Assembly: GCA_029260735.1 (NCBI GenBank)
Contig: JAJDCR010000077.1
Coordinates: 1 to 64,000 of the forward strand
From: Planctomycetota bacterium
GTDB taxonomy: Bacteria > Planctomycetota > Uabimicrobiia > Uabimicrobiales > Uabimicrobiaceae
Reading direction: 5' to 3'
DNA length: 64,000 bases
The translations under genes were made by a program, and so were the position numbers. Every line of letters begins with the position of its first letter. The first letter of the stretch is position 1. Below the pieces are notes generated by a model. The model did not search any database and was not told where the DNA came from. It worked only from the letters and a program-made list of their open reading frames with translations. This document shows, piece by piece, positions 34,618 to 48,417 of the stretch.

Positions 34618-36036
34618 ATGGGTAATTCCAATTTAAGACAGTCTAGAACCGCAAACCTATTCGGTAAGATTCTTAGCAATGAAGTTTTTGGTTTTTTGGC
34701 TCTGCTGACTTTATTTCTGGCCTTTATTCCAGATATTTTTGACCTTTCCGCTCAAAGCCAGGGTCTGCTAGAATATATTGAGTTCTTAATTCTTATTATT
34801 TTTGTTATTGAGTACTGTATTTCTTTTGCAAATTCCACCGATAAAAAAGCGTTTCTCATAAATCCGTGGAGAATTCTTGATGCATTGATAATCCTATTGG
34901 GCCTGTTATCGCTGACGCCAATTCTAAATGACATGTTTCGCAACACTCCCGCATTGCGTCTTTTTCGATTTTTTCGTCTAGCTTTATTCGGCACCAAATC
35001 CAGTAGTGTAATCGTTTCAAAGTCGAAGCCAGCTATCATGGCGAACGCAATTAGTGATCAATCGATGGAGACGTTATCTTTGAAATATGGCCAGAATGCG
35101 CAATTTCAGAAAATATCTTTCGATGCAGCAATAGAAGATATTTTGTCACCGCAAGACACACTTATTCTAATTTCCAACCCTGAGAAGGGTGTACTTCAAC
35201 AAGTTGCGACTTCTCTAGAAGTATCAGAGACAATGCTGCGCAACCGGTTTTACGCATCTCATTTCCCGCGTATCGAGCGAATGGAAAATTATACAACGTT
35301 GTTTTTATGGTATCCGGTCATTCAGGATGACGAGATCAGCGGTGTGCCGACAATTGCTCGAACTGGTGTCCTTTTTGTCGGTTCAAAGAATAATTTGGTC
35401 ATTCTAACTCAGTCAAAAACGGAGCTCCCATTATCTATTGTCTCGCAGCTCAACGAGAAAGATTCTGATCAGCTTGCATTTAAATCAACATTAGCCCTTC
35501 TGAAAAACCTTAATCAAAGTTACACTCAAATCAATGACCAACTGGAAACATCACTATTTCGTATAGAGAGTCAGCATCACAATTTCGACGACAAAACATT
35601 TCTCAGCCTTACCTTTAAGTTACGCGGTGAGCTGAGCAGAGTCCGAAGCAGTTTAAAACATCTTGGTAACGTTCTCAAACAGCTTGCTGAAAAGCCCGTC
35701 GCCATCAAGTCATTCCCAACGGAACCTCGACCGGAGTTTTCTATACTAGCGGAAGATACAGAAAGCCTGCATGAGAGCATTGACTATTTATTATCGACAC
35801 TTTCCGCACTAGTTGATCTTCGTTTAAATGTATCCTCTTTTCAGCTCAATAAGGTTATGCGTTTGCTTGCATTGCTTACGGCGTTGGCATTAATCCCAAC
35901 TGTTACAGGCGGTCTTCTGGGGATGAACCTGATGGAAAGCCCTTGGCCTATATCTCTTTCGCAGGTTTCATTCGGTATTGCCGTGGGTATGATACTTTGT
36001 CTCTATTTATTTGCAGTTAAGGGCTGGTTAAAGTAA
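34618..36036 (+). CDS. voltage-sensor-like domain fused to CorA-type cation transporter
   Basis: A 472-residue protein. Residues about 25-130 hold four hydrophobic segments; the fourth has regularly spaced basic residues (ALRLFRFFRLALF), like the S1-S4 unit of ion-transport channels. From about 145 onward it follows CorA: a soluble alpha/beta part, a long helical stalk, then two C-terminal transmembrane helices with the CorA signature loop (TGGLLGMNL; GMN near 438). Normal CorA proteins are about 320-370 residues, so the N-terminal membrane domain is extra. The expected role is Mg2+ or other divalent-cation transport, perhaps voltage-tuned. Codon and residue use look unlike the neighbours, suggesting transfer. 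The start has a GAGGA ribosome-binding sequence. Confidence 0.85.
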   Translation: MGNSNLRQSRTANLFGKILSNEVFGFLALLTLFLAFIPDIFDLSAQSQGLLEYIEFLILIIFVIEYCISFANSTDKKAFLINPWRILDALIILLGLLSLTPILNDMFRNTPALRLFRFFRLALFGTKSSSVIVSKSKPAIMANAISDQSMETLSLKYGQNAQFQKISFDAAIEDILSPQDTLILISNPEKGVLQQVATSLEVSETMLRNRFYASHFPRIERMENYTTLFLWYPVIQDDEISGVPTIARTGVLFVGSKNNLVILTQSKTELPLSIVSQLNEKDSDQLAFKSTLALLKNLNQSYTQINDQLETSLFRIESQHHNFDDKTFLSLTFKLRGELSRVRSSLKHLGNVLKQLAEKPVAIKSFPTEPRPEFSILAEDTESLHESIDYLLSTLSALVDLRLNVSSFQLNKVMRLLALLTALALIPTVTGGLLGMNLMESPWPISLSQVSFGIAVGMILCLYLFAVKGWLK

Positions 36037-36688: not shown

Positions 36689-36825
36689 CTGAAAAATATA
36701 TAAAATTCGATTTTACTCCTCGTAGTTAGACTACGATATGACAAATTTAAAAACACATAAATCAAAATTAATAATAATATGTAACCTGAAATTTATTAAT
36801 AAAAATATTTATCGTTCTAAATAAG

Positions 36826-37288
36826 ATGACTACAAATACTAATTGCACATAAAGTTATATAACTAAAAAATTTCTTTTTCGTTATCCTCCTTCAGCAAAG
36901 AGTAAAATATTTTTGTCTTGTTTATTCTACATTTATAGCATTGCACTATCAAAATTCACTAAATACACTTCTAAAAAAACATTAACATGACTACAAGTAC
37001 TAATTGCACATAAAGTTATATAACTAAAAAAATTTCTTTTTCGTTATCCTCCTTTAGCAAAAAGTGGAATCGTTTATATTGTTTTTCCTTTGTATATTAT
37101 GTTTATAGCATTGCACTATCAAAATTCACTAAACACACTTCTAAAAAAAACAGTAAAATGACTATAAATACTAATTGCCCATAAAGTTATATAATCAGAA
37201 AAATTTCTTTTTCGTTATCCTCCTTTAGCAAAAAGTGAAATCGTTTATATTGTTTTTCCTTTGTATATTACTTTATAGCATTGCGCTA
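36826..37288. repeat. three-copy noncoding tandem repeat, 161-171 bp period
   Basis: Copies start at 36826, 36987 and 37158, each with ATGACTA.AA.TACTAATTG; the third is shorter at its end. Each unit carries a TTTCTTTTTCGTTATCCTCCTT block and ends in TTATAGCATTGC. Copies 1 and 2 also carry a perfect 12-bp palindrome AGTTATATAACT; copy 3 has it degraded to AGTTATATAATC. No open frame runs through it. The long spacing and lack of variable spacers exclude CRISPR. The array lies between the HTH gene and the A-PCP-reductase operon. Confidence 0.85.
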
Positions 37289-37940: not shown

Positions 37941-38861
37941 ATGAAAGCTTTAGTTAAACAAAATGAAGTTGTAACGCTTCAAGATGTGACCTTGCCCCAA
38001 ATAGCAGCAAATCAAGTATTGATTAAGGTGGCTTGTGCTAGTTTATGTCGCACAGATGTGTTTGCGGCAGAAGGAAAAATTGCGACAAAAAATCCTCTCA
38101 TTTTGGGTCATGAGATGGCAGGTACAGTTGTCGAAACGGGGTCGAATGCTACTCTTTTAGTAAATCAAGAGCGGGTTACTGTCAATCCTGTGATTCCCTG
38201 CTATAGCTGTGACTTTTGTATGAGAGAGGAGTATAGTGATTGTCAAAACACTAAGTTTTTAGGGGTTTGGCTAGATGGTGCTTTTGCCGAGTACATTGCT
38301 GTTGACCAGCGCTGTGTTTATCCTATTGCCGATGACTTATCTTTTGTTGAGGCCACTTACTCTGAGCCGGTGGCTGCTTCTTTGGCTGTGATAAAGGCTG
38401 ATATTAAGCCTCAGCACTGTGGTTTAATTTATGGTGACAACCGTATCGCCCATTTGACCTTGCGCATTTTAGAAGCTCATGGTTTTGATAATGTTACGAT
38501 TCACTCTACTGGACAAAATTTAATTTTGAATCACTACGACTTCATTATTGAGACTCTTGCCACAACGAAAACGCTTAGCGATATGATTGCAGCAATTCGA
38601 CCGCGAGGTTTAATTGTTTTTAAAAGTCGCCAATACCAAGCCGTTAATTTACAACTTCATAAAATTCTTGCCAAGGAACCGCGTTTTCAAGCAGTGAACT
38701 ATGGTTGCTTTAAAGAAGCGATCCAATTGTTGAGCTCTCGTAAAATTCAGGTCAGCGATTTAATTGGACAAATGTACCGCCTAGATGATTTTGAAGAGGC
38801 TTTTCAAGATTCGCTGAAAAGCGAAGCGCGTAAATTGTTTTTTCAAATAGGAAATGCTTAA
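37941..38861 (+). CDS. zinc-dependent MDR alcohol dehydrogenase-like protein
   Basis: 306 residues counted from the ATG at 37941; an upstream in-frame start (37860) would add an unlikely 27-residue leader. It shows the medium-chain dehydrogenase layout: catalytic zinc ligands Cys36, His57-Glu58 (GHEMAG) and probably Glu142, and structural zinc cysteines 87, 90, 93 and 101 (CYSCDFCMREEYSDC). The cofactor-binding loop is degenerate, reading YGDNRIAHL at about 164-172 where family members have a Gly-rich GxGxxG. At 306 residues it is shorter than the usual 340-350. It is the first gene of a six-gene operon; the stop overlaps the next start (TAATG). The role is likely oxidation or reduction of the pathway alcohol or aldehyde, or a non-canonical activity given the altered loop. 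Confidence 0.85.
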   Translation: MKALVKQNEVVTLQDVTLPQIAANQVLIKVACASLCRTDVFAAEGKIATKNPLILGHEMAGTVVETGSNATLLVNQERVTVNPVIPCYSCDFCMREEYSDCQNTKFLGVWLDGAFAEYIAVDQRCVYPIADDLSFVEATYSEPVAASLAVIKADIKPQHCGLIYGDNRIAHLTLRILEAHGFDNVTIHSTGQNLILNHYDFIIETLATTKTLSDMIAAIRPRGLIVFKSRQYQAVNLQLHKILAKEPRFQAVNYGCFKEAIQLLSSRKIQVSDLIGQMYRLDDFEEAFQDSLKSEARKLFFQIGNA

Positions 38862-40753
38862 TGTGTGGGATTATTGCAGTAAAACTGCAGCAGGGTATTG
38901 TCGAAACAGACAAGCTACAGTTGGCCTTGGACACTTTGCATACGAGAGGTCCGGATGGGGAGGGCTTATGGCAAAGTGATTCTCGGCAAGTCGCTCTTGG
39001 TCATAAACGCCTCAGTATAATTGGTCTTGGCAATAGTCAGCAGCCGATTAGCAATGAAGACAAGACCATTCACATAGTTGTTAATGGTGAATTTTATGGT
39101 TTTGAAGAAATACGCACAAAGTTAGAGGAACAAGGCCATCAATTTCAAACCGATTCGGATAGCGAAATTGCTTTACATCTCTATGAGCAATACGGATTAG
39201 ATTGTTTAGATTATTTGCGCGGCGAGTTTGCCTTTGTTCTCTATGATGAAAAGAAAGAGCAGTTGTTTGCGGCCCGAGATCGTTTTGGGATAAAACCACT
39301 TTGCTATGCTATTGTCGAGAATAATTTATTTATTGCTTCCCAAGCGAAAGCTTTATTTGCTTTAGGAGTAGAGAAGTATTGGGATCATCAGTCGCTCTTT
39401 CACAGTTGCCATATGCAGTATGTTTTGCCCGATAGAACCTTATTTAGAGGGATAACCCAGTTGCAACCGGGTTATTTTCTAATAGCAAAGGACAAAAAAC
39501 TTACTAGCCATTGCTATTGGGATAGCAATTATAGTTCCTCTGTTAAGAACTATGATGCCAACGAATTAATCGCCCAATTTCGGGATATTTTCAGTGAAGC
39601 TGTAAAATTACGCCTACGAGCAGATGTCCCTATTTGTTGCCATTTAAGCGGAGGTTTAGATTCCAGTGCCGTTTTGGGACTAGCCGTAAAATACTCAAAT
39701 AAACCGATACCGGCTTTTTGTGTTAGCTTTAGCGAACAAAACTACAATGAATTAGCTATTGCCAAGGAAACAGCACAGTTAGTAGGAGTGCCTTTACACG
39801 TGGTGCCCATTAGCCAAGAAAAACTTATCGCTCATTTATCTGATGCTGTTTATGCGAGCGAAGGCATTGCTATCAATGGTCACCTTCCTGCCAAATATTT
39901 ACTGAATCAAGCGATTAGACAAGCGGGCTACAAAGTAGCCTTAACCGGTGAGGGTTCCGATGAAGTGGTCGCCGGTTATCCCCATTTCCGTATGGATTTA
40001 TTAAGACAGCAACAAAACCATCAAGAAATGGAAAGCTTGCAACAAAAGAACTTAGCTTCTGTCGGCATTATGCTTGCAGAGGGCAATAGCTTAAGCACGG
40101 ATGCTATTTTACAACGCTTAGCTTTTGTCCCGAGTTTTTTGCAAGCTAAGGCTAGCTTGGGTTATAAATTAAGAGGGTTCCTAAGCGAGGATTTTAAGCA
40201 GTCGTTTGTGGCAAAAGATAGTTACCGTGATTTAATGAATCATATCACTGCTGATTTGACCTCCTTTGAGCAAGTGAATCAATCTATGTATTTATGGCAA
40301 AAGACATCTCTTCCTAATTATATCTTGAAAACCCTCGGCGATGGTTGCGAAATGGCTCATAGCATTGAAGGGCGCTTGCCTTTTTTAGATCATAAATTAT
40401 TTGAATTTGTCCAGACTCTTCCTACGAATTTAAAAATCAATAAGCTTGTGGAAAAATACATTTTACGCGAAGCCACCCGCGATGTTTTAAGCGAGCGCGT
40501 TTATAAGCGGCAAAAGCATCCCTTTGTTGCTCCTCCAATAAGCGTCTTTAGCAGCCACAGCAGCCACGAAATGATGAATGATTTATTAACTAGCCAGTCA
40601 TTTTGCCATCTATCTATTTTTAACCATGCTAAGGTAGCTGAGTTACTGGCTATGTGTCAAAAAAAGGATAGCCGGCAGCAAGTTTTTGATCCCGTTCTAC
40701 TGACCATTTTATCCATTGCTATTTTAAATCAATGCTACCAACTAAAGGAATAA
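38861..40753 (+). CDS. AsnB-type glutamine-dependent amidotransferase/synthetase
   Basis: A 630-residue asparagine-synthase family enzyme. The N-terminal nucleophile Cys2 (MCGII) begins a class II glutaminase domain with RGPDGEG near 27-33. The synthetase half has the pyrophosphate loop SGGLDSSAVLG near residue 263, and EGSDEV further on. Canonical enzymes make Asn from Asp; homologues in natural-product loci amidate other carboxylates or, in the beta-lactam synthetase branch, close rings. Because Cys2 is intact, it probably uses Gln as ammonia donor. It starts inside the previous stop codon and ends 3 bp before the methyltransferase, so it is translationally coupled. A pathway role is inferred from context. 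Confidence 0.93.
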   Translation: MCGIIAVKLQQGIVETDKLQLALDTLHTRGPDGEGLWQSDSRQVALGHKRLSIIGLGNSQQPISNEDKTIHIVVNGEFYGFEEIRTKLEEQGHQFQTDSDSEIALHLYEQYGLDCLDYLRGEFAFVLYDEKKEQLFAARDRFGIKPLCYAIVENNLFIASQAKALFALGVEKYWDHQSLFHSCHMQYVLPDRTLFRGITQLQPGYFLIAKDKKLTSHCYWDSNYSSSVKNYDANELIAQFRDIFSEAVKLRLRADVPICCHLSGGLDSSAVLGLAVKYSNKPIPAFCVSFSEQNYNELAIAKETAQLVGVPLHVVPISQEKLIAHLSDAVYASEGIAINGHLPAKYLLNQAIRQAGYKVALTGEGSDEVVAGYPHFRMDLLRQQQNHQEMESLQQKNLASVGIMLAEGNSLSTDAILQRLAFVPSFLQAKASLGYKLRGFLSEDFKQSFVAKDSYRDLMNHITADLTSFEQVNQSMYLWQKTSLPNYILKTLGDGCEMAHSIEGRLPFLDHKLFEFVQTLPTNLKINKLVEKYILREATRDVLSERVYKRQKHPFVAPPISVFSSHSSHEMMNDLLTSQSFCHLSIFNHAKVAELLAMCQKKDSRQQVFDPVLLTILSIAILNQCYQLKE

Positions 40754-40756
40754 TAG

Positions 40757-41521
40757 ATGCCTTCGGAACAAAATTGGTTAAAATCTTTTTACGAATTAGA
40801 AGCACTTGCCGATTTACTTTTAGAACGCTCTAACTCCGATGAGCTAAAAAACACTTTGCAGTTTTTACAAAAGCATTTGGCGATTCAACCTGGAGACACT
40901 GTTTTCGACCAAGGGTGTGGTATTGGCAGCATTAGCATTCCCTTCGCCAAAAAAGGCATGAGAGTAATTGGAGTGGATTTATCTCAAAACTATATTGAGC
41001 GGGCGAAAAAACAAGCCCAAGAAGAGGGCTTATCTTGTCATTATCACTGCGCAGATGCCCTAGAGTTTGTAAGTGAAATCCCTTGCGATGCTGCTTGGAA
41101 CTGGTTTACCAGTTTTGGTTATAATCAAGATGACCGGGTCAATATCAAAATGCTGGAGTGTGTCTTTCGCTCTCTTAAACCAGGAGCGAAATTCGTGCTG
41201 GACTATCAGAATATCGCAAATATTATTAAGAATTTTAAAACGACTATCAAAAAAGAAGGAATAAGTGATGGGCGTAAAGTAGTTCTCACTCGCAACTGTC
41301 GTTTAAATTTTGTCACCGGGATGATCGAGCAGCAATGGAGCTATGTTTTTGTCAATGAAAAAATTGTCCGAAAGAGTTTCCTAAAAATGTATCTCCCTCA
41401 TCAGTTGAAACTTATGCTGGAGCAAGTGGGTTTTGTCGATGTCGTTATTTATGGTGATTTGGCCGAAAATGAATTGACTTCGGATAGCTCACGTTGTCTT
41501 TGTGTCACGAGGAAACCATGA
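40757..41521 (+). CDS. SAM-dependent class I methyltransferase
   Basis: A 254-residue protein. Motif I, VFDQGCGIGSISIPFAKKG (about residues 50-68), is followed by an acidic ribose-binding residue (VIGVDLS, about 73-79). These are the core of Rossmann-fold methyltransferases of the Methyltransf_25/11 type. The substrate (N-, O- or C-) cannot be told. It starts 3 bp after the AsnB stop and its stop overlaps the oxygenase start by 4 bp (ATGA). It is likely a tailoring methylation in the same pathway. Confidence 0.9.
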   Translation: MPSEQNWLKSFYELEALADLLLERSNSDELKNTLQFLQKHLAIQPGDTVFDQGCGIGSISIPFAKKGMRVIGVDLSQNYIERAKKQAQEEGLSCHYHCADALEFVSEIPCDAAWNWFTSFGYNQDDRVNIKMLECVFRSLKPGAKFVLDYQNIANIIKNFKTTIKKEGISDGRKVVLTRNCRLNFVTGMIEQQWSYVFVNEKIVRKSFLKMYLPHQLKLMLEQVGFVDVVIYGDLAENELTSDSSRCLCVTRKP

Positions 41522-42360
41522 TGATTAGTCATATTTTGCCTGAAACAGGCGAAGAGATCAGGCGTGCCGTCTATAACGGTGCGGTTTTTAAAATAACAGA
41601 TAGCGTTATCGGCCAAGATTTAGCAGCAGAGATCGGAGAAATTGTTACAAGTGAACTAGGCGAGCCTATTCGTGAGGCTCAATTTCGCTTAACGGAGGAA
41701 CAGTTTTTTCAACAAATTGGCAAGTTACGAAAAAAATTTTATAGCGAGAGTTATTTTCATGATAAATTGCGCCAAGTTATAAACCACTATGGTTTTAGCG
41801 ATAGAGAACACGCTTTTGATCCTATGCGATTGCGAGTAGTTGCTCATGAGGGTTACAAAAATCCAAGTGCGGCTCCCGTTTACTATGGCCACAGGGATAC
41901 TTGGTATGGTAATCCGCAGAATCAAATCACTTGGTGGCTTGCCTTACATGACGTCGAGGAGCAGGATACTTTTGTCTTTTATCCTGATTACTTTCATCAG
42001 GCCGTTGCGAATGATTCAGAATGTTTTGATTATGATAGCTGGACGAGCAAAAGTAAAGACCTCAAAATAGGTTGGCAAAATTCTAATTCAGGGCGTGAGG
42101 CTCTCTATCCTCAATTGCGCGAAAACCCAGAGTCTTTTGACAATGTTTATTTTTCTGCGAAGAAGGGCGATATCCTTGTTTTTGCCGGACAACATTTACA
42201 CCAAACCCTAAAAAATAATACGGGTTTAACCCGCTTCAGCATAGACTTCCGCACAGTACATTTAGAAGATCATGAGAAAGGGATCGGGATTCATAACGTA
42301 GACAATCGTTCCACAGGCTCTGCTTTAAAAGGACATATTTGGCCTCAGGAAATATCATGA
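41518..42360 (+). CDS. 2-oxoglutarate/Fe(II) oxygenase-like protein (PhyH-like)
   Basis: About 280 residues from the ATG at 41518, which has a good AGGA ribosome-binding sequence. A facial-triad candidate is HxD in YGHRDTWYG (about 125/127) plus the distal His in QHLHQTLKN (about 228), and a 2OG-anchoring Arg in RFSIDFR ten or so residues later. This fits the phytanoyl-CoA dioxygenase-like group of 2OG oxygenases, which hydroxylate, desaturate or halogenate small molecules; Asp in HxD argues against halogenation. It overlaps both neighbours by 4 bp (ATGA) and so belongs to the same operon. Confidence 0.82.
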   Translation: MMISHILPETGEEIRRAVYNGAVFKITDSVIGQDLAAEIGEIVTSELGEPIREAQFRLTEEQFFQQIGKLRKKFYSESYFHDKLRQVINHYGFSDREHAFDPMRLRVVAHEGYKNPSAAPVYYGHRDTWYGNPQNQITWWLALHDVEEQDTFVFYPDYFHQAVANDSECFDYDSWTSKSKDLKIGWQNSNSGREALYPQLRENPESFDNVYFSAKKGDILVFAGQHLHQTLKNNTGLTRFSIDFRTVHLEDHEKGIGIHNVDNRSTGSALKGHIWPQEIS

Positions 42361-45194
42361 CATTATTTACGGAAGCTTTTCGTCAAGTAGCTAAAGAACA
42401 TGGACAAAGAATCGCTATTAGCCTAGATGGTAAGCCTTTGTGGACTTACGAACAACTATACCACCGAGCCTTGTTTGTCGCAAACGAACTAAGTGATTGC
42501 GGAGTGAAAAACGAAGAAATTGTTGCCATTGCCATTAAGAAAAGCCCTGAATACATCGTTGCTATGCTCGGCACTTGGTTTAGTGGTGCCGCTTTTTTGC
42601 CATTAGATCCCTTGCTCCCAAACCAACGACAGCAATTTTTACTAAAAGATGCTAATGTTAAATTAGTTATTGCCAAAAGCCTCTGTAAATGGGACGACGT
42701 TTTGATTTGGCAATGGCGAGAGGGGGAGGCCGAGAGTGGACCAAAGATCACAGTTTCTCCAGAAAACTTGGCTTATGTTATTTATAGCTCAGGGTCAACT
42801 GGTCGGCCTAAGGGGATTGCACTAGAGCATAAGGGAATTTGTAACTTACTCTACCAGCAAATCAACGCCTTTGCCCTAGAGGAAACTAGTCGTGCTTTGT
42901 TTTACTTATCAACTAATTTTGATGCTGCGATCTCTGATATTGGCACCGCACTCTTAGCCGGAGCTAACTTATTTTTGGAATCAAATACTATTTTGCCAGA
43001 CCAACTGACATCTTTATTACGATTGCAAAAAATTAGCCACATTGATATGCCTCCATCCCTGCTCAAAGTTCTCCCTTTGCATGAGTTTCCTGATTGCCTA
43101 AAAACAATTATAATAGGAGGAGAAATTTGCCCACCCGCAATTGTCCGACAGTTTAGTCAGCGTTTTCGAGTGGTCAATGTTTATGGGCCCACTGAAACCA
43201 CCATTTGCACTAGCTTAGTTGTTTGTGACAAAGAAACTTGGACGCAGCCCTCCATTGGACAAGCACTTGATGGTGTTGATTATCAAGTGGTAGCAGAGAA
43301 TGGACAACTGGCCCAGATAGGACAATCGGGAGAGTTGTATATCTCTGGTATAGCTCTAGCACGCGGTTACATAAATCAAGATGCTCTGACCGCACAAAAG
43401 TTTATTTATTGGCAAAATCAGCGTTGCTACTGCACTGGCGATAAAATTTTAGTGACAGACACCGATCTGGTCTTTTTAGGACGCATAGATCGCCAAATTA
43501 AAATAAATGGCGTCTTAATTGCGCCAGAAGAGATTGAAGGGCAACTGCTTAAGCATCCTGATATTCATAAAGCTGCTGTTATTGAGCAGCAGCAATCATT
43601 AGTTGCTTTTATCGAAGGAGAAAAGCTCAGCCGATCACAGGTACGCGACCACTTAGAGAAACTTCTAAGTCCATGGCTATTGCCCAATTGCTATGAATTT
43701 ATCTCCCTGCCCATAACACTAACAGGGAAAGTCGATTACCAAAAATTACAAGCCCTCTCGAAGAAACAGATAAGAGAACAGCAGCATGGTTTAACGAATG
43801 AACAAAGAGTTTTAAGACAAATTTGGACTCAATTATTGGCAACGGATGTAAGTCTAGAGGACGATTTTTTTGATTTAGGTGGCGACTCCATTAAAGCTTT
43901 ACAAATGGTTGCTCTAGCCAAAGCGGAGGGACTTAATCTAAATACTTGTATGCTCCAAAGCCAGCGAACTATAGGTAATATTTTAGCCCATTTATCATAT
44001 GAACACATAGATGTTCTTGCTTGCGATTTTTTGGGTAGGGAAGCGCAAATAGCAGATAAGTTTCTCAGCTTTGCCAAAGAAAGAGCAGAAAACAGACAAG
44101 TTTCTGATCAAAATATATTGCTAACAGGTGCGACGGGTTTTTTGGGTTGCCACATTCTCTGGCAACTACTAGAAAAAAGCGACAGTGTTATCTACTGCTT
44201 AGTGAGAGGACAAAATCCAGAACATTGTCGAGAGCGATTGCTAGCGACTATGACTAAGTATTTTGGGCACGTTTCGCTAGTTGATCGAGTTGTCGTTGTT
44301 TGGGGAGATATAGCCCAACTTTATTTGGGTTTACCAGAAGAAGAGTGGAGTAAACTTAGTCGTAATGTAGGCGTGATCTATCATTGTGCTGCCGATGTAA
44401 ATTTAGTTGCCCCTTATCCAGAACTGAAGCAAGCCAATGTCACCGGAACATATGAAATACTGCGCTTGTTAACTCAGGGCTGCTATAAGTGCTTGCATTA
44501 TGCTTCGACATTATCGGTATTTGTCGCAAGTGATCAAAATCAGGGGTTACTTTTGGAAAGTGATGATCTTTGCACTACTCAAAACGTTTATGGTGGCTAT
44601 GCTCAAACAAAATGGGTTAGCGAAGTCATGCTCCGCAAATTTAGCAACTATATTCCCATATCTTTTTACCGCTTTGGTTTACTCACAGGTAATTCACAAA
44701 CAGGTTATGGCCCCGATGATTTATTAGCGATGTTTGTTCGTGGTGCTCGCCAATTAGGTTATCTCCCTCAAATGACCACAGATATTGCTCTAGACATTAC
44801 ACCTATAGACTACGCAACAAAGGCGATGGTATCCTTAGCCTCTAGTGGCTACTTTAACACCTACCATATTGCCAATGAGCAGAGTTTGTCTTTTGAGCAA
44901 TTAGTAAGTTATCTACAAAGTTTTGGAGTAAAACTAACTCTGTTAGAGCCCAAAAATTTTCGTAAAGAAATCGGCTTAGATAGTAAAAAAATAGAGCCCA
45001 CAGTAGCAGCTGCTCTTTTGGCCTTGTGCCGATTAGATCAAGCCAGTTTCCACTTAGGGAGAACTTTAGATCTATTTCAAGCAAGCAATGTAATTTTTAG
45101 CACAGAGAACAGCAAAAAAATCCTCAGCGAATTTACTTGCCCTTTGCCCAGTGAAAAACTGTTACATAGATATTTTCATCATATCTTGTCGTAA
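42357..45194 (+). CDS. single-module NRPS: adenylation-PCP-thioester reductase
   Basis: 945 residues from the ATG at 42357 (4-bp overlap with the previous stop, CAGGA ribosome-binding site). The A domain is residues about 1-480, with YSSGSTGRPKG and YGPTETTIC. The carrier serine is in LGGDSIKAL near 509. The reductase domain starts near 585 with TGATGFLG, and its active-site YAQTK is near 748. There is no C domain, so a single activated acid is loaded and reductively released as an aldehyde or alcohol. My manual pocket reading is D-A-S-D-I-G-V-I-C-K; the acidic residues at the third and fourth positions resemble pockets for basic amino acids (Lys, Orn, Arg), but this is a low-confidence guess. 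The architecture also resembles carboxylic acid reductases and Lys2. Confidence 0.93.
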   Translation: MTLFTEAFRQVAKEHGQRIAISLDGKPLWTYEQLYHRALFVANELSDCGVKNEEIVAIAIKKSPEYIVAMLGTWFSGAAFLPLDPLLPNQRQQFLLKDANVKLVIAKSLCKWDDVLIWQWREGEAESGPKITVSPENLAYVIYSSGSTGRPKGIALEHKGICNLLYQQINAFALEETSRALFYLSTNFDAAISDIGTALLAGANLFLESNTILPDQLTSLLRLQKISHIDMPPSLLKVLPLHEFPDCLKTIIIGGEICPPAIVRQFSQRFRVVNVYGPTETTICTSLVVCDKETWTQPSIGQALDGVDYQVVAENGQLAQIGQSGELYISGIALARGYINQDALTAQKFIYWQNQRCYCTGDKILVTDTDLVFLGRIDRQIKINGVLIAPEEIEGQLLKHPDIHKAAVIEQQQSLVAFIEGEKLSRSQVRDHLEKLLSPWLLPNCYEFISLPITLTGKVDYQKLQALSKKQIREQQHGLTNEQRVLRQIWTQLLATDVSLEDDFFDLGGDSIKALQMVALAKAEGLNLNTCMLQSQRTIGNILAHLSYEHIDVLACDFLGREAQIADKFLSFAKERAENRQVSDQNILLTGATGFLGCHILWQLLEKSDSVIYCLVRGQNPEHCRERLLATMTKYFGHVSLVDRVVVVWGDIAQLYLGLPEEEWSKLSRNVGVIYHCAADVNLVAPYPELKQANVTGTYEILRLLTQGCYKCLHYASTLSVFVASDQNQGLLLESDDLCTTQNVYGGYAQTKWVSEVMLRKFSNYIPISFYRFGLLTGNSQTGYGPDDLLAMFVRGARQLGYLPQMTTDIALDITPIDYATKAMVSLASSGYFNTYHIANEQSLSFEQLVSYLQSFGVKLTLLEPKNFRKEIGLDSKKIEPTVAAALLALCRLDQASFHLGRTLDLFQASNVIFSTENSKKILSEFTCPLPSEKLLHRYFHHILS

Positions 45195-45203
45195 GGATTT
45201 ATT

Positions 45204-46175
45204 ATGAAAAAAACTTCAGGAATGCTCTTGGGTAAATTTATGCCCTTGCATTTAGGCCATCTTTACCTAATTGAGTTTGCAAAAAACTATGTCGATGAGC
45301 TCTATGTTGTTGTGGGGACGATCAAGAGCGAAACGATGGAGGGAGATTTGCGCTATAATTGGGTTAGGCAAGCTTGTCCTGGTGTTAATGTAATACATCT
45401 GACAGATGAAAATCCGCAAGAACCACAAGAGCATCCCGACTTTTGGCAAATATGGTACAATAGCTTAACGCAGGTTTTACCAAATAAGCCCGATTATGTT
45501 TTTGCCTCAGAGAAGTACGGCCAGAAGCTAGCGGCAATTTTGCACGCCCAATTTGTTCCCGTTGATCAACTCCGCACCATTGTCCCGATTAGTGCTACTA
45601 AAATACGGAATGATCCAATGAAGTATTGGCAGTATATCCCTCGTCCAGTAAGACCGTATTACTGCAAGCGAGTATGTATTTTTGGCCCCGAATCTACAGG
45701 TAAGAGTACTTTAGCCTTAGATTTAGCTCATCATTTTAACACGGTTGCAGTGCCCGAGTACGCACGCACTCATTTAGAGGCAGGGGAAGGCAAAATAGAC
45801 TACAGTGATATAGCCAAGATTGCTCGGGGGCAAATGGCAAGTGAAGAGGCTTTAGCCCACAATAGCAATCGGGTAATTTTTTGCGATACCGATTTAGTTT
45901 TAACAACCATCTGGAGCGACTGGCTATTCCAAGATTGCCCCGACTGGGTTCTTGAGCAAGCAAATGAGCGCAAATACGATTTGTATTTAGTGACAGATAT
46001 TGATGTGCCTTGGGTGAAAGACCAGGTGCGCTATTTACCCAAGGAGCGGGAGTCATTTTTTAAGCGTTGTTTAGCCGAATTAGACCAGCGCGATTTACCT
46101 TACGTTGTTATTAAAGGAGACTGGGAGAAGCGTTTTGAAATGGCCATTGCAGAGGTTGAAAAATTATTTGCTTGA
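45204..46175 (+). CDS. nadR: NadR-like NMN adenylyltransferase/ribosylnicotinamide kinase
   Basis: A 323-residue bifunctional enzyme. The nucleotidyltransferase half has GKFMPLHLGH near residues 10-20 and ISATKIRNDP near 130-140. The kinase half has the Walker A motif GPESTGKST near 162-170. It lacks the N-terminal DNA-binding domain of enterobacterial NadR and is therefore a metabolic, not regulatory, version. The known activities make NAD from NMN and phosphorylate nicotinamide riboside. It starts 9 bp after the reductase gene, so it is part of the operon, which is odd for NAD salvage. It may supply cofactor or use an NAD-like precursor. Confidence 0.92.
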   Translation: MKKTSGMLLGKFMPLHLGHLYLIEFAKNYVDELYVVVGTIKSETMEGDLRYNWVRQACPGVNVIHLTDENPQEPQEHPDFWQIWYNSLTQVLPNKPDYVFASEKYGQKLAAILHAQFVPVDQLRTIVPISATKIRNDPMKYWQYIPRPVRPYYCKRVCIFGPESTGKSTLALDLAHHFNTVAVPEYARTHLEAGEGKIDYSDIAKIARGQMASEEALAHNSNRVIFCDTDLVLTTIWSDWLFQDCPDWVLEQANERKYDLYLVTDIDVPWVKDQVRYLPKERESFFKRCLAELDQRDLPYVVIKGDWEKRFEMAIAEVEKLFA

Positions 46176-46311: not shown

Positions 46312-47265
46312 ATGGCACTTAAAAAAAAGAAAATGTGGTTCTGTATATCCTTGGCGATGTTAGCCATTTTAGGCTTAGTGGGCACGACAATCTACTTTTT
46401 CTTTCCTCAGTGGCTAGTCGCTCTCAACTATACAAGCTATGAGTGGCAAGCGGGAGTTAATGACAAATCTATAACCGTACAAGAGTATCAAACGAGCTAC
46501 TACCAAGGAGAAGCAGGAGAGCCCTTAGTTCTAATTCACGGATTTGGGGATAGTAAAATTTCATTTATACAATCTTCTCAGCTATTATCTTCCCACTACC
46601 AAGTAATTCTACCAGAGGTTCCCGGATTTGGAGAAACGGAGCGTAATCCTAATCGAGATTACAGCATTCGCTCTCAAGTAGAATTTTTCCACCAATTGTT
46701 TAAAAGCATCGGATTAACAAGTTTCCATCTGGGCGGCAATTCTATGGGAGGACATATTGCAACTGCTTATACTCTGGCCTATCCAAAGCAGGTAAAGAGT
46801 TTAATTTTACTGAATGCCTCAGGACTCCAAGTCAAAAAAGAACTGCCTTATCAACCACAAGGGAAACCTGTCAAAACAGTGGAAGATTTTCGTAAGTATA
46901 CCCAAGAACTTTTCTACCAAGTACCTTCGATCCCAAAACCTATTGAGGCTTACTTTGTCGCCCAATCCGCAAAAAACTTTAGCTGGTTTAATAATATACG
47001 TTCTCACATAAGAGAAGGGGACGATTACCTTCTCAACCAACGGATTGACCAAATAAAGTGCCCTACTTTAATCATCTGGGGAGATCACGACACCGTAGTT
47101 TTACCTGCTGTAGGAGAACTATATCATAAGAATATCACTGGCTCAGAGTGGATATTGCTAAAAAACTGTGGCCACCTTCCTCAATATGAACGCCCTCAAC
47201 AAACGGCGGAGTTAATCCATAAATTTTTGCTATCGCACAGCACAAATTTACCGAGTAATGAATAA
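46312..47265 (+). CDS. membrane-anchored alpha/beta hydrolase
   Basis: A 317-residue protein. A basic N-terminus (KKKK) and a hydrophobic helix at about 9-31 form a signal anchor. The hydrolase core has an oxyanion HGFG, a nucleophile elbow GNSMGG (Ser near 142), the acid in WGDHDTV (near 257) and a catalytic His in CGHLPQYERP (near 286). Family members are esterases, lipases or C-C bond hydrolases; the substrate is unknown. It stands alone, 136 bp after the NadR gene, and its composition is back to that of the left part of the window. Confidence 0.9.
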   Translation: MALKKKKMWFCISLAMLAILGLVGTTIYFFFPQWLVALNYTSYEWQAGVNDKSITVQEYQTSYYQGEAGEPLVLIHGFGDSKISFIQSSQLLSSHYQVILPEVPGFGETERNPNRDYSIRSQVEFFHQLFKSIGLTSFHLGGNSMGGHIATAYTLAYPKQVKSLILLNASGLQVKKELPYQPQGKPVKTVEDFRKYTQELFYQVPSIPKPIEAYFVAQSAKNFSWFNNIRSHIREGDDYLLNQRIDQIKCPTLIIWGDHDTVVLPAVGELYHKNITGSEWILLKNCGHLPQYERPQQTAELIHKFLLSHSTNLPSNE

Positions 47266-47348
47266 CTACACTACAAAGTCAACTTTCTCGCATATTCTAT
47301 AAAAAGAACGTCATCGAATTCTATACACCAAAGGTTATAAAATCAGCA

Positions 47349-47389
47349 CCCCAGGATAAAGTGAGCCAAAGGCGAGCGATCTCCTGGGG
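47349..47389 (+). repeat. dispersed hairpin repeat, copy 2
   Basis: An 8-bp perfect stem CCCCAGGA/TCCTGGGG surrounds TAAAGTGAGCCAAAGGCGA. It matches the copy at 30583-30622 on the opposite strand, with compensatory stem changes. It lies between two co-oriented genes, about 40 bp before the MBL gene start. Confidence 0.7.
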
Positions 47390-47427
47390 CAAAAAATAAT
47401 ATTTGCACGCCTAGTTAGGAAATCCCT

Positions 47428-48417
47428 TTGTCTCAAGAAAATTTTAAATATATCCAAAACCCTTCATTAAAAACAGTCTGGTCCCATTGGTCGGGAAATC
47501 CTACCTTCCAAGACAGGTTTTTGTACCCCGAAAAACCTTTTCGCAACTCAATAAAAAAAGTTTTACGTTGGCAGCTTTTTCCAAATCCCCAAGCGAAAGA
47601 AAAACGCCACGATTCCTGGACTCTTCCAGTGCGTAAGAATTCCGCAATTTTAGAGAGCAAAGAAGATTTTATTTTGTGGCTAGGTCATGCTACCTTCGTT
47701 TTTCAATTTCAAGGGGTTCGTTTCATTACAGACCCTGTCTTTTTTGATTTACCCCACTATCCTCGGCAAATTGAGTTTCCTTTTCCCCTAGAGAGCCTAA
47801 TAAATATCGACTATATTCTTCTCTCTCATGACCACCGAGATCATTGTGATATAAAGAGCCTGCGCCTTCTCATGAAGCAAAACCAAGCCAAGATTCTTGC
47901 TCCTTTGCATTTAGGGAGACTACTCCCATCTCTCTGTTCTCCCGACAAAATCCAAGAGGCAGGTTGGTACCAAGCATACAAAATGAAAGAGAATGAACCT
48001 GAGGTAATTTTTCTGCCTGCGCGGCATTGGTGCCGTCGAGGGTTAGGGGATTTTAACCGCATTTTATGGGGAAGCTTTCTTTTACGCACAAATAAAGGGA
48101 ATATCTATTTTGGGGGAGATAGTGCTTTAGGAGGCCATTTTGAGCAAATCGGAAAACTCTTTCCTATTGATTTAGCTATTTTAGGGGTAGGCTCCTACCA
48201 ACCTGATTACATTATGCAAGAGAGTCATATGAACCCAGAAGAAGCCACTCTTGCCTGGAAGAAACTGGGGGCCAAGACTCTCATTCCTATGCACTATGGC
48301 ACCTATGATCTAACCAATGAACCCTTAGGAGAACCGTATCGCCGAATCAAAAATTGCTTTGCCGATAAAGAGGAGTACTTGAAGATTTTGGAGGCAGGGG
48401 AAGGATTTTTCTTGTAG
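47428..48417 (+). CDS. MBL-fold metallo-hydrolase (UlaG/NAPE-PLD-like)
   Basis: A 329-residue protein with a TTG start: AGGA precedes it by about 7 bp and no better ATG follows nearby. The metal-binding motif HDHRDHCD is near residues 134-141, an early GHATF lies near 85, then ARHW, GGDSAL and PMHYGTYD. These features match the branch containing N-acyl-phosphatidylethanolamine phospholipase D and RomA/UlaG-like lactonase-fold enzymes. It is probably a soluble zinc hydrolase acting on a phospho- or lactone-type substrate that is not predictable here. There is no signal peptide. Confidence 0.88.
   Translation: MSQENFKYIQNPSLKTVWSHWSGNPTFQDRFLYPEKPFRNSIKKVLRWQLFPNPQAKEKRHDSWTLPVRKNSAILESKEDFILWLGHATFVFQFQGVRFITDPVFFDLPHYPRQIEFPFPLESLINIDYILLSHDHRDHCDIKSLRLLMKQNQAKILAPLHLGRLLPSLCSPDKIQEAGWYQAYKMKENEPEVIFLPARHWCRRGLGDFNRILWGSFLLRTNKGNIYFGGDSALGGHFEQIGKLFPIDLAILGVGSYQPDYIMQESHMNPEEATLAWKKLGAKTLIPMHYGTYDLTNEPLGEPYRRIKNCFADKEEYLKILEAGEGFFL

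Follow-up and report, generated by a model that had tools for sequence, protein, structure and literature searches.

A six-gene cluster joining a reductive-release NRPS module to a NadR-type enzyme recurs across bacterial phyla

The question raised by this locus is whether six adjacent genes on a planctomycete contig, one of which encodes a NadR-type enzyme of nicotinamide adenine dinucleotide (NAD) metabolism, specify a single pathway, and what part the NadR protein would play in it. The genes lie in a stretch of 64,000 nucleotides (the window; positions 1 to 64,000 of contig JAJDCR010000077.1) from the ~8.7 Mb genome of a Planctomycetota bacterium, and were confirmed as a block of six consecutive open reading frames (ORFs) on the plus strand at 37941-46175. 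They encode, in order, a medium-chain dehydrogenase (MDR), an AsnB-type glutamine-dependent amidotransferase, an S-adenosylmethionine (SAM)-dependent methyltransferase (MT), a PhyH-type Fe(II)/2-oxoglutarate (2OG) oxygenase, a stand-alone non-ribosomal peptide synthetase (NRPS) module with adenylation, carrier and reductase domains (A-PCP-R), and a NadR-type nicotinamide mononucleotide (NMN) adenylyltransferase/ribosylnicotinamide kinase. An initial annotation, made from the DNA letters and their translations, had proposed these six families, with each of which Pfam and NCBIfam agree. It had also described a unit joined by stop/start overlaps or gaps of 3-9 bp, and this is borne out by the ORF coordinates: the MDR and AsnB genes share a TAATG (1-bp overlap), 3 bp separate AsnB from MT, MT and 2OG overlap in an ATGA if the 2OG gene starts at the in-frame ATG at 41518, 2OG and A-PCP-R overlap in a further ATGA, and 9 bp lie between A-PCP-R and NadR.

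Close relatives of the 2OG oxygenase are present in two genomes of the same phylum (52% and 47% identity), and a profile built from these three sequences was scanned over 85,000 genomes. It identified 33 loci, of which 21 have all six genes within the retrieved stretch; the other 12 are without one to four genes, mostly where the contig ends. Seven gene orders occur among the complete loci, with the order of the window in 14 and the 2OG or MT gene shifted, or genes inverted, in the rest. Judged by record titles the loci belong to Planctomycetota, Acidobacteriota, Myxococcota, Verrucomicrobiota and alpha- and gamma-Pseudomonadota, along with single metagenome-assembled genomes labelled Prochloron (Cyanobacteriota) and Actinomycetota that may reflect binning errors. 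Complete copies are found in the isolates Sulfidibacter corallicola M133, Acanthopleuribacter pedis KCTC 12899 and the planctomycete TBK1r.

The same set was recovered with two other anchors. When an MT profile was run over 284 Myxococcota genomes, 16 strong matches (E at or below 1e-67) stood clearly apart from the weaker ones (E at or above 1e-52). Eight of the strong loci were outside the 2OG set and had enough sequence around them; six of these were complete, one had no NadR gene and one had neither NadR nor MDR, while a ninth strong match was a 3.3-kb contig bearing MT alone. Six of the weaker matches served as controls and were without core genes, except for one remote MDR match, 26% identical and over 7 kb distant. 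Likewise, a search for the NadR family over 74 genomes related to a Legionella carrier returned four NadR proteins, three of them in cluster genomes, and one of these marked a new locus (G425) with MDR, AsnB, MT and A-PCP-R genes around NadR. In one genome (G083) the set is divided over two contigs (MDR-AsnB-A-PCP-R-NadR and MT-2OG), both halves being retained, and in another (G407) MT is on a separate contig. We conclude that the linkage goes beyond chance, with the genes adjacent in 21/33 loci found by 2OG and in 6/8 further loci found by MT, and the support that the initial annotation had asked for, namely that the gene neighbourhood be conserved in unrelated taxa with no product known, is strongly in evidence. 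Since the six genes have been kept together in some thirty bacteria, distantly related and from at least five phyla, they almost certainly serve one small molecule, and we have very little doubt that they form a coherent unit.

A second line of evidence is the substrate pocket of the A domain. Its code in the window protein is DASDIGVIC(K), and the nine pocket residues conform to D-A-S-D-[I/V/L/T]-G-[V/C/I/A]-[V/I/L]-C in 39/39 readable A domains, a further copy, whose A domain is frameshifted, having been left out of the count. Because the code is invariant in all readable copies it would imply a single substrate across all loci. The lysine-loading MxcG protein has the code DAEDIGTVV, and published consensus codes are D-A/V-E-D-I/V/L-G-A-V/I-T/D for arginine and DAQDLGVVD for Glu/Gln (PMC12283262). 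Asp278 and Gly301 are common to the cluster, arginine and Glu/Gln codes, and the residues shared with these and with the lysine code of MxcG make a polar or cationic side chain likely. We nevertheless rejected naming the substrate from the pocket alone, as its residues overlap those of the lysine (MxcG), Arg and Gln codes. Tyrosine codes also share pocket residues.

As judged from their motifs, all six enzymes retain their catalytic residues. The zinc-dependent MDR (37941..38861, 306 aa; PF08240, E 1e-25) has the catalytic zinc ligands (the C of LCRTD, GHE and EP), a structural Cys cluster and a degenerate Rossmann glycine motif; its orthologues keep (L/I/V)CxTD, GHE and xEPx, with the structural cluster missing in a few. 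The AsnB-type enzyme (38861..40753, 630 aa; TIGR01536, E 9e-133) carries the N-terminal Cys2 and an SGGLDS pyrophosphate loop, and MCGI, LSGG(L/I)DS and GEG(S/A)DE are kept in orthologues. The MT (40757..41521, 254 aa) was assigned from Pfam, alignment, a predicted model and Foldseek; it has a distinctive motif I, DQ(C/G)CGxG in the orthologue alignment, and its predicted fold (pLDDT 94.6; Foldseek against the PDB) is nearest to the small-molecule N-methyltransferases CcbJ, CypM and CgnL, and is also near the C-methyltransferase PsmD. The 2OG oxygenase (41521..42360, 279 aa; PF05721, E 2e-6) has the HxD...H triad and 2OG-binding Arg of the PhyH type, here HRD...H (H124, D126, H227) and R238, all invariant in 33 sequences. 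This facial triad is of the hydroxylase type and not the HxG/A of halogenases, and the predicted model (pLDDT 94.7) is placed by Foldseek nearest to PtlH, MysH, SptF and SnoK. More distant 2OG relatives (L022-L026 and L203; 28-36%) occur in planctomycetes and on rhizobial plasmids; those in planctomycetes have no other cluster genes nearby. Finally, the A-PCP-R protein (42357..45194, 945 aa; Pfam AMP-binding, PP-binding and NAD_binding_4) shows the hallmarks of a reductive-release module, namely the A core motifs, the PCP serine within LGGDS and the thioester reductase signature TGxTGxLG...YxxxK (general form TGxxGxxG plus YxxxK), and these motifs are kept in nearly all aligned orthologues.

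The initial annotation did not recognise the set, including NadR (45204..46175, 323 aa; TIGR01526, 303.6 bits, E 2e-90), as that of any described pathway. In the comparison NadR proves to be core to the cluster, being present in every complete locus and rare in relatives of the host, with a kinase domain of its type fused to some copies of the NRPS protein. Its adenylyltransferase motifs HxGH and SxTxIR and the Walker A of its kinase domain are intact and conserved in orthologues, and the sequence matches the PDB NadR entries 8x7f and 1lw7. It thereby has both catalytic domains and their motifs in common with known NadR proteins, but differs from them in having no helix-turn-helix domain, in scoring below the TIGR01526 equivalog cut-off of 341.15 bits (as the other cluster NadRs also do), in forming a moderately supported clade of its own and in its linkage to an NRPS gene. 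In most of the 33 cluster genomes it is the sole NadR. A housekeeping role was rejected, because a separate NadD is encoded by the host and NadR occurs in just 7/119 of the host's relatives. In three genomes a NadR-type kinase domain is found at the C-terminus of A-PCP-R, and two of these also have a full NadR.

Genes of NAD and ADP-ribose metabolism adjoin some copies. NrtR is divergent from MDR in Sulfidibacter corallicola (L028) and in a Polyangiaceae locus (L038), where in addition an ADP-ribosylglycohydrolase gene begins within ~20 bp of the end of NadR; L104 has a weaker ADP-ribosylglycohydrolase match. In a Kangiellaceae locus (L051) a NADAR gene precedes MDR by ~80 bp, and in a myxococcote (L192) another lies between NadR and A-PCP-R. 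The NrtR-MDR interval of L028 (6071-6139) contains two tandem perfect 9-5-9 palindromes of the type AATAGTGGC-N5-GCCACTATT, which are operator-like. The chemistry of the cluster may be tied to NAD.

From the conservation of the unit over phyla, its catalytic residues and its one pocket, with the individual steps drawn from family chemistry, we consider it reasonably probable that the six genes encode one small-molecule pathway with reductive release and tailoring, in which NadR acts on an intermediate or regenerates an N-ribosyl/NAD species. The A domain would activate one alpha-amino acid whose side chain is polar or cationic (a Lys/Orn/Arg-like, Gln-like or amino-aromatic acid being candidates) and load it on the carrier. 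The R domain would then release an amino aldehyde with NAD(P)H, which could cyclise or become an amino alcohol, and the MDR might carry out a further redox step. The AsnB enzyme would convert a carboxylate to an amide with glutamine as donor, the MT would methylate, probably on nitrogen, and the 2OG oxygenase would hydroxylate or desaturate. NadR could phosphorylate, and possibly adenylylate, an intermediate, or it could regenerate N-ribosyl/NAD species used by the pathway. Within this scheme, reductive release and tailoring are very likely, while whether NadR acts on a pathway intermediate rather than merely remaking NAD is close to evenly balanced, leaning slightly against. A tentative and rather doubtful extension is that the released, amidated, methylated and oxidised heterocycle or amino alcohol, derived from the amino acid, is phosphorylated and joined to AMP by the dedicated NadR to give an NAD-like dinucleotide; if true, bacteria of at least five phyla would hold a cofactor or antimetabolite of a new, pyridine-nucleotide-like class.

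Several observations weigh against a single NadR-dependent pathway. Pairwise distances of NadR correlate poorly with those of the other cluster genes (r 0.14-0.34), and those of 2OG also correlate weakly, so that genes have been exchanged independently. The G425 locus has no nearby 2OG gene, and no exporter or resistance gene recurs around the loci. In a tree with six other NadRs the cluster proteins form one group with support of only 63/95, and a second NadR of G083 (L105, contig 25), 46% identical and unlinked to the cluster, groups beside them. NAD-related neighbours occur at only about five of ~43 loci, and an ordinary, unrelated NadR (L110) is also flanked by NrtR and a glycohydrolase gene, so part of the NAD neighbourhood could be generic NAD salvage.

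Two alternatives concern the role of NadR. It might do no more than provide or renew NAD(P) for the reductase and dehydrogenase, or it might be a passenger; the pathway would then end in a tailored but otherwise plain amino aldehyde, alcohol or cyclic imine. By family, both the R and the MDR domain do use NAD(P)H, and the NadR distances do not closely follow those of the other genes, but NadR has been kept through rearrangements in every complete locus, mostly as the genome's sole NadR, and its kinase domain has been fused to A-PCP-R in three genomes. To our knowledge, moreover, genes for cofactor synthesis are not usual in reductive-release clusters, and we judge this explanation improbable. 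NAD could instead be a building block or ADP-ribosyl donor, with an amino-acid-derived unit joined to NAD or an N-ribosyl nucleotide by one of the cluster enzymes, NadR rebuilding the nucleotide pool, and a glycohydrolase or NADAR protein trimming the product. Such a role would fit the conservation of NadR with both domains intact and the NrtR, ADP-ribosylglycohydrolase and NADAR genes that adjoin four to five copies, and it has a precedent in altemicidin biosynthesis (sbz), where SbzP uses NAD and SAM, so that NAD is a biosynthetic building block, and where SbzP homologues are found in several phyla (PMC11610977). No SbzP-like enzyme dependent on pyridoxal phosphate (PLP) was found by Pfam among the six proteins, however; the glycohydrolase and NADAR genes are missing from most loci, and it is the kinase domain alone, without the adenylyltransferase, that is fused to the NRPS. 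We regard a building-block role as somewhat unlikely.

The other alternatives concern the product rather than NadR. An intracellular cofactor-like or protective metabolite, as opposed to a secreted natural product, would be in keeping with a pocket code and gene set that stay the same from phylum to phylum, and with the lack of exporter, immunity or additional tailoring genes that recur. Against this, the distribution is patchy, many of the bacteria that carry the genes have large genomes with an abundance of biosynthetic clusters, and the cluster is absent from close relatives, so the pathway is not essential; we think such a metabolite unlikely. That the cluster is already known, with its product described under another name, seems very improbable: a search of 5.39 million papers, a body in which most subscription articles are missing, gave only unrelated clusters when biosynthetic clusters were combined with NadR or the names of its enzyme activities, or when the A-domain code was sought, and the genome paper on Sulfidibacter states that further study of the strain's exact metabolites is needed.

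Among known systems, MxcG of myxochelin biosynthesis gives the A-PCP-R protein its highest full-length NCBIfam score, 488 bits against a curated cut-off of 2300 (NF038078, C-A-PCP-R). The two have the pocket residues D235, A236, D278, I299 and G301 and a C-terminal thioester reductase in common, but E239 of MxcG is S here, there is no condensation domain, and catechol/siderophore genes are not nearby. Single-module A-PCP-R enzymes (carboxylate and amino-acid reductases, Lys2-like proteins) have the same domain order and the motifs for activation, loading and reductive release, but the present module is set among AsnB, MT, 2OG, MDR and NadR. Specialised metabolism with a link to NAD, and relatives in several phyla, are features that sbz has in common with the cluster, but the cluster has no SbzP-type PLP cyclase, and we know of no use by sbz of an A-PCP-R plus NadR set. 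The pathway is widespread and apparently undescribed, in the sense that it was not found in the literature searched; this includes the invariant pocket code. Natural-product clusters mostly have a narrow range or a variable gene content, which makes it unusual for a compact pathway to have one apparent substrate over at least five phyla and a core enzyme of NAD type. Its defined gene set allows one to ask how specialised metabolism joins NAD chemistry and how widespread NAD-linked natural products are, and the MT and 2OG profiles built here can locate more copies.

The genes do not all share one history. Between the distance matrices of MDR, AsnB and A-PCP-R the correlation is r 0.78-0.82, and between those of MT and 2OG it is r 0.60; together with the values for NadR, this suggests a putative precursor module (MDR, AsnB, A-PCP-R), a tailoring module (MT, 2OG) and a separable nucleotide step (NadR). 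A composition unlike both flanks, from which acquisition had been proposed in the initial annotation, was not found: gene GC is 0.40-0.43 in the block and 0.36-0.43 in flanking genes, codon-usage distances overlap, and the AT-rich part is the upstream intergenic stretch only (~31% GC at 36-38 kb). We therefore rejected acquisition as deduced from composition. Acquisition of the block is still plausible because its distribution is patchy; for example, a genome of the same family (G001) is without 2OG, MT and NadR.

Other connections were considered and set aside. A single 7739-aa NRPS-type ORF lies on the minus strand at 468-23687, in a genome with dozens of A-domain matches; no evidence ties it to the block, which is 14 kb off and on the opposite strand. 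A viral link comes down to four remote 2OG matches (26-29% identity) and a role in anti-phage defence to one match of the methyltransferase domain to mads_2, while plasmid matches, for the two genes compared, are just 27-34% (2OG) and 30-33% (A-PCP-R) identical. Apart from the six families themselves, none recurs convincingly in the neighbourhood of the block. Beside the cluster in one genome (G213; L021/L031) is a protein of radical-SAM/SPASM type, judged by eye from CxxxxC and C-terminal cysteine motifs. Downstream of the operon in the window, alpha/beta hydrolase and metallo-beta-lactamase-fold genes follow on the same strand (46312-48417), and no recurrence of such a flanking family was seen at other loci. 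No Rfam element was found in the window between 30 and 50 kb. The AT-rich region 5' of the operon contains, at 36812-37270, three direct repeats of ~127 nt, 161 and 171 bp apart and 62-93% identical, which have no Rfam match. Further upstream, the protein encoded at 34618-36036 combines an Ion_trans channel domain and a CorA-type magnesium transporter domain in one chain.

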